Shown here: positions 3,158 through 5,032 of the stretch, one piece after another | Numbering within the stretch: the stretch's first letter is position 1 | How the letters are laid out: every line of letters begins with the position of its first letter | Assembly: GCA_030590165.1 (NCBI GenBank) | Contig: JAUUZA010000008.1 | Location: forward strand, 1-25,758 | Origin: Candidatus Altarchaeota archaeon | GTDB taxonomy: Archaea > SpSt-1190 | DNA length: 25,758 bases | Direction: 5' to 3' | Made by a program: the position numbers and the translations under genes | Notes under the pieces: generated by a model | What the model saw: the letters and a program-made list of their open reading frames with translations, nothing else | Told to the model about the DNA's origin: nothing | Database searches by the model: none

Positions 3158-3808
3158 ATGCCATTTGTGATTCTTGAAACTGAATTAAGGCGCAAGATGA
3201 TTTTGGAGAATTCAAATCCAAGTAATGTGAATGAAATGCTTGACCAATATTTTAAGTTTAATAAAAATAAGGTTGCAAAAATTGTAAAAAAATATGAATT
3301 TGAAAGTTTAGAAGAAGCAGCGTGGAATTTAGATTTAATAATGGACTATTCTAGTTGGAAAAAATTTAATTTTTCAGTTAATGATTTGGATTATAGTCAG
3401 ATAGTTGATAACGTTTATTTAAATCTTAATGCTGAAAGAAAAATAAAATTTCAAAAAGGAAGAGGATTGAGGCTTCAAGCAAGGAGAAAGACAAAAGGAT
3501 ATTGTATGCATCTTTCTTTTCTTTTAGCTTCAATTGGAAAACATTTCGGAAAAAAAGTTCATATTCTCAATGGTAAGTCTGAATATCTTGAAAAGAGAAT
3601 TGGTAAAAAAATTAAGAGTAAACATAGTATGCATGGAGTTATTTATTGTGAAACTGATAATGTGATTATTGAAACATTATCTCCTGAATTTATTAAGAAA
3701 CAGGGAGGTAATCCTATGAATATTAAAAAAGAAAAAATTACTCTCGATCCCGAGAGTATAGAATATTTGAAAAAGAAAAATCTTTATCAAAAGTTTAGAG
3801 TCGATTAA
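3158..3808 (+). CDS. Putative transglutaminase-like (papain-fold) protein
   Basis: A 216-residue soluble protein without signal peptide or membrane segment. From about residue 114 it shows the pattern of transglutaminase-like cysteine enzymes: GYCMHLSFLLASIGKHFGKK (114-133, candidate nucleophile C116 at the start of a helix), HSMHGVIY (156-163, candidate His) and VIIET (169-173, candidate acidic residue). The N-terminal 110 residues are charged and unassigned. Family membership is an inference from the C-H-E order and spacing, not from a strong match; it could be catalytically inactive. ATG 3158 is the first start after pop5. Its last 14 bases overlap the end of the convergent helicase gene, inside a hairpin. 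Confidence 0.5.
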   Translation: MPFVILETELRRKMILENSNPSNVNEMLDQYFKFNKNKVAKIVKKYEFESLEEAAWNLDLIMDYSSWKKFNFSVNDLDYSQIVDNVYLNLNAERKIKFQKGRGLRLQARRKTKGYCMHLSFLLASIGKHFGKKVHILNGKSEYLEKRIGKKIKSKHSMHGVIYCETDNVIIETLSPEFIKKQGGNPMNIKKEKITLDPESIEYLKKKNLYQKFRVD

Positions 3809-3816
3809 ACTCTAAA
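3794..3816. terminator. Hairpin across two convergent stop codons
   Basis: A perfect 8-bp inverted repeat, TTTAGAGT (3794-3801) and ACTCTAAA (3809-3816), with a 7-nt loop. It contains the plus-strand TAA (3806-3808) and the minus-strand stop (3795-3797). A bidirectional 3'-end or mRNA-stability element is likely, but there is no long U-tract, so classical intrinsic termination is unproven. Confidence 0.45.
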
Positions 3817-4823
3817 TCCAAATTATGAATCAATTTTCTGAAAGTATCGTGGTCATCACCGCGAAGCAAAGTAATAACCTTACCTTTCTTTCCGGCACGT
3901 CCAGTTCTTCCAGAACGATGAACATATGTTTGTCTATCTTTTGGTACATCGAAGTTGATTATAGTTTCAATACCAGGAATATCAATTCCACGGGCTGCTA
4001 CATCAGTTGCAATCAAATATCTTTCACCTTTTCTGAATTTTGACATATTTCGTTCTCTTGCAGATTGAGACATATCACCATGAAGTGAGGGGGTTTTGAG
4101 TATTTCTCCAAGTTTTCTTGTCATTCGTTTTGTATTACAAAATACAAGAGTCTTTCCACCATTCAATATTTCTCTTAATTGACGGATTTTATTTGAAGCT
4201 TCAATATACAAGTGGTCGAGTTCAGGCATTTCTTCTCCAACTTTCTCCATCTTGAAATGTCTTCCCTTTAGTAATTTCATTATATCGTTATCGAGAGTTG
4301 CTGAAAATAGCCAAATATGTTTTGGAGGACAGCGTCTCATAATTTTTAGTATGTCCCTTGAAAACCCCATGTCGAGCATTCTGTCAGCTTCGTCCAGAAC
4401 CAAAAATTCAGGTTCAGCTCTAAGTGTTCCTCTTTGCATATGGTCCATAATACGACCAGGCGTTCCAATTACAATATCTGCCTTTTTGAGACCATCAAAT
4501 TGTTTTTGATATCCAACTCCACCATATATTAAAACAGTGTGAGCCTTGCTAATTTTTCTAATTACTTCATTGATTTGTATTGCAAGTTCTCTTGTTGGTG
4601 TTAAAATCATAGCCTGAATTCGCTTTTGTGGTTTAATTAACTCTGCTAAAGGAATTCCAAATGCGAGTGTTTTTCCACTCCCTGTTTTTGCCCTAATTGC
4701 AACATTTCCACCCTTTAATGCGATGGGAATTGCTTTTTCCTGAACCTCGAAAGCTTCAGTCCAACCTAACGATTCAAGTTTTTTGGCGAGATCGCTAGAT
4801 ATACCTAAGTGTTTAAATTTCAT
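3795..4823 (-). CDS. DEAD-box ATP-dependent RNA helicase
   Basis: A compact 342-residue helicase consisting of the two RecA-like domains and almost no extensions. Motifs in order: Q-motif region (FEVQEKAIP, 25-33), I AKTGSGKT (45-52), Ia PTRELA, Ib TPGR (121-124), II DEAD (144-147), III SAT (174-176), IV LVFCNTKR, V ATDVAARGIDIP, VI HRSGRTGRAG. All catalytic residues are intact. It unwinds or remodels RNA with ATP; targets (ribosome assembly, mRNA) cannot be told. Unlike nearly all its neighbours it has a long leader: TATA box about 165 nt upstream, then a structured RNA region, then AGGTGA 6 nt before ATG 4823. That suggests post-transcriptional control. The 3' end overlaps the convergent gene by 14 bp. 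Confidence 0.97.
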   Translation of the reverse strand: MKFKHLGISSDLAKKLESLGWTEAFEVQEKAIPIALKGGNVAIRAKTGSGKTLAFGIPLAELIKPQKRIQAMILTPTRELAIQINEVIRKISKAHTVLIYGGVGYQKQFDGLKKADIVIGTPGRIMDHMQRGTLRAEPEFLVLDEADRMLDMGFSRDILKIMRRCPPKHIWLFSATLDNDIMKLLKGRHFKMEKVGEEMPELDHLYIEASNKIRQLREILNGGKTLVFCNTKRMTRKLGEILKTPSLHGDMSQSARERNMSKFRKGERYLIATDVAARGIDIPGIETIINFDVPKDRQTYVHRSGRTGRAGKKGKVITLLRGDDHDTFRKLIHNLDLEFNRL

Positions 4824-4967
4824 TTTTTTTCACCTTTTTTATATTTCTCGTGGTCCCTTCGACAGGAACCAAATATCACGCGTACGTGATTTGACGAGAG
4901 AAAATTTACACGCCTGCATTTCGTCTGCATAGGCATTTCATAGTTATTCTACTATTTCCTCTCAACA
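4824..4967 (-). ncRNA. Structured 5' leader RNA of the helicase (candidate cis-regulatory element)
   Basis: A gene-free stretch (4824-5032) between aRF1 and the helicase start. Reading the minus strand 5' to 3', hairpins are at 4955-4940 (ATAGT/ACTAT, 6-nt loop) and 4934-4912 (GCC+TGCA with TGCA+GGC, 7-nt loop, 2-nt bulge), followed by a compact three-way junction at 4899-4846: outer stem TCTCGT/ACGAGA (4899-4894 with 4851-4846), arm ATCACG/CGTGAT (4890-4885 with 4880-4875, loop TACG) and arm GGTTCC/GGGACC (4870-4865 with 4857-4852, 7-nt loop). In the last arm the minus strand makes a U-G wobble where the plus strand would have a C-A mismatch, so a minus-strand RNA is favoured. Start inferred from the TATA box. 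It could instead be a processed stand-alone sRNA. Confidence 0.55.
4830..4835 (-). promoter_or_regulatory. Shine-Dalgarno of the DEAD-box helicase
   Basis: On the minus strand AGGTGA lies 6 nt before ATG 4823, a strong match to the archaeal anti-SD (CACCU). Almost all first genes in this window lack one, so this gene is translated from a leadered mRNA. Confidence 0.75.
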
Positions 4968-4988
4968 ATGTACATTTGACTCTTCCTT

Positions 4989-4995
4989 TTTATAA
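4989..4995 (-). promoter_or_regulatory. TATA box for the helicase leader transcript
   Basis: Minus-strand TTATAAA (within GCTTATAAAAAGG). Transcription would start about 25 nt downstream, near 4967, giving a leader of about 140 nt. A second AT-rich element at 5001-5012 (minus AAAATTATACAT) is a weaker alternative. Confidence 0.5.
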
Positions 4996-5032
4996 GCATA
5001 TGTATAATTTTGTAACAAGTTAGTGGTGACGT

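Follow-up and report, generated by a model that had tools for sequence, protein, structure and literature searches.

DEAD-box RNA helicase genes belong to a type that is cold-induced in other archaea, and the deaD genes of Methanococcoides burtonii and Escherichia coli are cold-linked DEAD-box helicase genes with long leaders. To our knowledge, regulatory leader RNAs have rarely been described in archaea, and almost never in lineages with small genomes. The described systems closest to the one presented here come from two other archaea. In Thermococcus kodakarensis, the cold-inducible DEAD-box helicase TK0306 is preceded by a 159-nt 5′ UTR containing a tRNA-Lys (PMC4247193); in Methanococcus maripaludis, the mRNA of the DEAD helicase MMP0457 carries a 223-nt 5′ UTR, the RNA chaperone TRAM0076 binds to this mRNA in vivo, and the mRNA level goes up upon TRAM0076 deletion (PMC6705878).

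The window analysed here is a 25,758-nt stretch of a Candidatus Altarchaeota genome (724 kb in 64 contigs), and its minus strand encodes a DEAD-box RNA helicase of 342 aa (3795–4823) with DEAD and Helicase_C domain matches; the protein is the sole match in its own genome at E ≤ 1e-40, the genome being 88% complete. The aRF1 gene lies upstream on the same strand. The helicase gene has its own TATA box, CTTATAAAA (4988–4996, −), 173 nt from the start codon, and transcription is predicted from it to start about 25 nt downstream, near 4966, which gives a leader of about 143 nt; a Shine-Dalgarno sequence (SD), GGUGA (DNA GGTGA; 4830–4834, −), lies in A-rich surroundings 6 nt before the ATG (4823–4821, −). 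The first-pass annotation had placed box, SD and start codon correctly, and a scan of the other window genes upheld its statement that no first gene but the helicase has an SD together with a distant TATA box: of the genes with an intergenic gap ahead of them, only the helicase combines the two; in several others, a TATA-like box lies 26–43 nt from the start codon and an SD is missing. Many other genes of the window are predicted to be leaderless. On the plus strand, a frame for a 216-aa protein (3158–3808) is convergent with the helicase gene and overlaps its end; this protein has no match in Pfam or NCBIfam.

The leader lies on the helicase strand and folds better than chance: its minus-strand fold reaches −39.8 kcal/mol (z = −3.48, with none of 200 shuffles as good), the plus-strand fold being weaker (z = −2.39). 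At the predicted 5′ end of the transcript stands a helix that the first-pass annotation did not contain, hereafter H1, formed by a 5′ strand, UGAGAGGAAAU (4954–4964, −), and a 3′ strand, AUUUUCUCUCG (4895–4905, −); it is the sole part of the leader for which conservation could be demonstrated. H1 encloses a fast-evolving apical insert with two hairpins, AUAGUAGAAUAACUAU (4940–4955, −), which overlaps H1 by two bases, and a second one at about 4911–4935 (−); two more (4875–4890 and 4852–4870, −) are folded between H1 and the SD. The apical insert also holds a small reading frame, MKCLCRRNAGV (4941–4906, −), without an SD; a conserved upstream ORF was rejected, as no conserved counterpart of this frame was seen by eye in the relatives. 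A pseudoknot was likewise discarded for the window family, a generic search having given nothing consistent.

A DNA similarity search with the leader in 150 genomes found only the leader itself; as the sequence is too diverged for such a search, the orthologous helicases were gathered by protein search. The resulting family comprises seven genomes, the window and six relatives, in a searched set with only 10 genomes of the phylum. All six relatives have a helicase orthologue (52–65% identity), and the promoter and start signals recur in 7/7 members: a similar TATA box lies 82–173 nt before the ATG (82–167 nt in the relatives), RGGUGA stands ahead of the ATG, and box, SD and distances are consistent with a 5′ UTR location, the transcription start being a prediction in each case. 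H1 measures about 8–11 bp across the family. In most members, it starts 30–37 nt away from the TATA box, which places its beginning no more than a dozen nucleotides into the predicted transcript. Its 3′ end is found 18–21 nt before the AUG in five of the seven genomes, leaving an A-rich stretch with the SD; the exceptions are the window and G005, where two extra hairpins stand between H1 and the AUG. Apical and downstream hairpins turn over fast: the insert differs in length and sequence among relatives, and the downstream pair is present, among the six, in G005 only, with unrelated sequence, the same-genus G006 being devoid of it.

We assessed H1 with a test that scores helices beginning no more than 22 nt beyond the predicted start and retains the best one. 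It recovered H1 in six of the seven genomes; in the remaining one (G005, leader L004), a different hairpin scored best, yet H1 is present in the predicted fold. Significance is nominal at best for individual leaders (p = 0.015–0.30), and in G004, where the preferred fold is somewhat different, the helix alone is not significant; combined over the family, the 5′-terminal helix reaches p = 8.5e-5 on the helicase strand versus 0.077 on the opposite one. The modelled probability of H1 is at least 0.86 in 6/7 genomes, and the family leaders fold better than the leaders of other genes (p = 7e-7). For covariation, the H1 strands were excised with equal flanks and aligned with MAFFT, the seven sequences giving a gapless alignment. 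Standard pairs occupy 93.7% of the 63 H1 cells (shuffled mean, 83.6%), and the covariation score is 0.561 versus 0.360 for shuffles, none of 500 being as high; it falls to 0.17–0.30 when the partner is slid by one to three positions. Four pairs show two-sided changes (G-C to A-U, A-U to G-C and G-C to U·G). Across the family, H1 counts 10 G·U pairs and no A·C; such an asymmetry is expected of neither a DNA operator nor an RNA read from the plus strand, so the helix can function only in RNA of the helicase strand. As the strands were picked by inspection and the sequences number only seven, this evidence is good but short of a formal R-scape analysis. To judge from the aligned leaders, compensatory changes have maintained H1 as a helicase-strand RNA.

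The helix is tied to the helicase gene rather than to its surroundings. In every relative, it lies downstream of the TATA box of the helicase gene itself and ahead of its SD; the upstream gene ends like aRF1 in G006 and G005, as in the window, and is not aRF1 in G003, G001 and G004 (by eye), yet H1 is kept. When the seven family genomes were scanned with H1 strand patterns, helicase leaders were the only hits apart from one match inside a coding region (G006:C55); with no second gene bearing the motif in these genomes, the idea of a regulon was dropped.

We thus have in hand a candidate for a cis-acting structured 5′ leader of the helicase mRNA in which H1 would be a post-transcriptional control point, autogenous or cold-linked, and we consider this the probable explanation; that H1 controls expression is what we infer. 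The folded 5′ end with H1 would protect the mRNA or set ribosome access, a factor that remodels RNA, either the helicase or a chaperone of the TRAM type, would alter the leader fold, and helicase output would then track RNA-folding stress, cold for example. Two facts make us favour a post-transcriptional role: the gene encodes an RNA helicase, and the Methanococcus helicase mRNA with its long leader is bound by a chaperone (PMC6705878). Sequestration of the SD upon removal of the H1 5′ strand was ruled out as a general rule, since the effect is uneven: the modelled unpaired fraction of the SD drops from 0.89 to 0.29 in G001, less so in some others, and the effect is absent in the window.

Across archaea, the leaders of helicase genes exceed those of other genes in length and in degree of structure. 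In 119 other archaeal helicase leaders compared with 128 controls, the mean fold z is −0.92 vs −0.21 (p = 7e-5); for the distance to the nearest TATA-like box, the median is 92 nt in the helicases and 29 nt in the controls. Helix tests on individual leaders of other archaea mostly fell short of significance. The trend towards long leaders fits the measured helicase 5′ UTRs of Thermococcus (PMC4247193) and Methanococcus (PMC6705878). Several local architectures occur among helicase leaders. Five leaders of other archaeal families (L078, L081, L137, L140, and L146) have a simple hairpin, AAGAAAAAG ... CUUUUUCUU, near the start codon; the GGAGG that precedes it in L078 and L081 would approach the AUG only with the hairpin formed. 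In family f6, leaders L103, L109, L125, and L155 have in common the element AAUGACG...GCAAUGA...CGUCAUUGC, with overlapping alternative pairings. In family f8 (L013, L069, L101, L106, L114, and L117), the helicase is immediately preceded by a tRNA-like sequence (anticodon CUU), an arrangement that resembles the published TK0306 leader; the f8 genomes are probably Thermococcus or close kin.

Another archaeal phylum has a second class of helicase leader, with the consensus GAGARAGCACUUG ... UUUCGCUUUUUCU ... AAGUGC. A model, R1, built from six leaders with GAGARAGCACUUG and UUUCGCUUUUUCU, matched 48 of the 279 genomes of that phylum that formed the search sample, and in 29 of 30 fetched loci a DEAD-box helicase begins right after the match, the remaining locus ending at a contig edge. 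Members are L167–L196 (phylum of G266) as well as L076, L130, L062, L065, and L138, and a further family, f78 (G164, G199, and G271), also carries the class. Its H1 is paired in 99% of cells, with A/G changes opposite U; these aside, covariation is uninformative there because the strands barely vary. Most members (four do not) have a downstream segment ending in GUGC and able to pair with GCACUU as a pseudoknot, and three outside leaders, L062, L065, and L138, show matching changes in the GCACUU pairing; the class probably forms a pseudoknot. Neither leader type corresponds to a described RNA family in our scans: Rfam 15 gave no window match at the gathering score (best sub-threshold E, 0.46) and, as the sub-threshold matches of the window are weak (E up to 10), membership of a known family was rejected; 18 sources with related leaders gave only weak sub-threshold matches (E up to 1), a tRNA aside, and the scanned members of the other-phylum class gave no Rfam match.

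The window leader and this class are alike in being directly upstream of a DEAD-box helicase with the SD after the element, and in pairing a purine-rich 5′ strand with a pyrimidine-rich 3′ strand. They differ in that the other-phylum class is far more conserved in sequence and has a second helix, H2 (GCACUU with AAGUGC), leading to the would-be pseudoknot; no such pair was found by eye in the leaders of f1, the window family. Moreover, the f1 genomes gave no match to the class models at E ≤ 0.05; the best weak matches of model R2 are the relatives' leaders L006 and L005 (E = 0.39 and 0.93), which fall to chance level under R3, the core-only model, and homology of the two would thus be weak by R2 and at chance by both a motif matrix and R3. 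Since the models miss the window leader and R2 alone gives weak matches, we call the two similar in place and logic. It is tempting to go further and see in the window leader a divergent member of an undescribed, archaea-wide leader RNA class dedicated to the DEAD-box helicase gene, with one purine/pyrimidine helix as its core, extended to a pseudoknot in the other phylum, by means of which the helicase would sense its own action on RNA; we offer this wider reading tentatively, as a possibility that we would not bet on.

Among the rival explanations, the one that survives best takes H1 as a constitutive 5′-end stabiliser, a terminal stem slowing mRNA decay with no switch involved. It would accommodate the place of H1 at the predicted 5′ end, the freedom of the enclosed insert to vary and an SD that is often open; however, many other genes of the window, predicted to be leaderless, manage without such a stem, and the tie to one gene type across archaea suggests control over generic protection. 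We regard mere stabilisation as rather unlikely.

A transcription attenuator comes next. The top enriched 7-mers in 95 non-redundant helicase leaders are CTTTTTC and TTTTTCT, above SD words; the former occurs in 15/120 helicase leaders vs 0/89 controls (p = 1.6e-4) and the latter in 21/120 vs 1/89 (p = 4e-5). Archaeal RNA polymerase terminates at U-tracts, and the enriched CUUUUUC speaks for a scheme in which U-rich leader sequence would cause early termination unless a chaperone or helicase intervenes. On some 5′ UTRs, TRAM0076 works as an antiterminator, but for the helicase mRNA the authors of that study rule antitermination out (PMC6705878). In the window and most family members, however, H1 has at most four consecutive U, and we find attenuation quite improbable at this locus.

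About as little credit goes to a temperature-driven switch, for which the fold of the leader has to be considered in detail. The first-pass annotation had described two hairpins and a compact three-way junction (4846–4899), and had suggested, by reference to known long leaders of DEAD-box helicases, a temperature or autoregulatory RNA switch. Both hairpins, those of the apical insert, do exist in the window but have no counterpart in the six relatives. The junction (span 4847–4898, −) would have as arms the two hairpins found between H1 and the SD (4852–4890), closed by a stem pairing 4894–4898 with 4847–4851; its sequences are present, but this stem takes bases of the H1 3′ strand (4895–4898), which makes the two folds mutually exclusive, and at 37 °C the modelled probability of the stem is 0.005 vs 0.86 for H1 (constrained folds, −43.2 vs −45.9 kcal/mol). 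Being absent in the relatives and energetically minor, the junction was ruled out as a conserved fold. Covariation among relatives, which the annotation had proposed to look for, is found for H1 and not for the junction or hairpins that it had named; the pairs of these named parts are not conserved, whereas the leader as a whole does keep a conserved helix. In favour of a switch between H1 and the junction in the window species, one may cite the segment 4895–4898 common to the two exclusive folds and the gain of the junction with modelled temperature, the two becoming comparable at about 65 °C; against it, the junction stays below 1% up to 37 °C and is predicted to be minor below about 65 °C, and the predicted SD exposure hardly moves (0.30–0.39 from 5 to 50 °C), so the folding model lends the temperature idea no support and we consider it quite improbable as well. 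Least probable of all is a stand-alone small RNA, which the annotation had mentioned, or the 3′ end of an aRF1 transcript: aRF1 does lie upstream on the same strand, but H1 is kept without aRF1 there, and its constant place between the helicase TATA box and SD argues against it.

The probable reading remains H1 as a post-transcriptional control point of the helicase mRNA. The H1 leader points to an undescribed control element on the helicase gene, and a covarying leader helix amid many predicted leaderless genes marks a specific site at which RNA-folding stress may be sensed in an archaeal cell. The other-phylum class, with its 48 genomes and the same kind of gene downstream at every checked locus, provides enough sequences for consensus and structure work.

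Compared with the known systems, the window shares with the deaD genes of M. burtonii and E. coli a long leader on the helicase gene. It resembles MMP0457 in that a DEAD helicase mRNA begins with a long leader, the binding by TRAM0076 being a feature of MMP0457. The TK0306 leader differs by its tRNA-Lys, no tRNA being found in the window; like the window leader, it is a long leader of a DEAD-box helicase mRNA, and this in an archaeon that typically has short ones.
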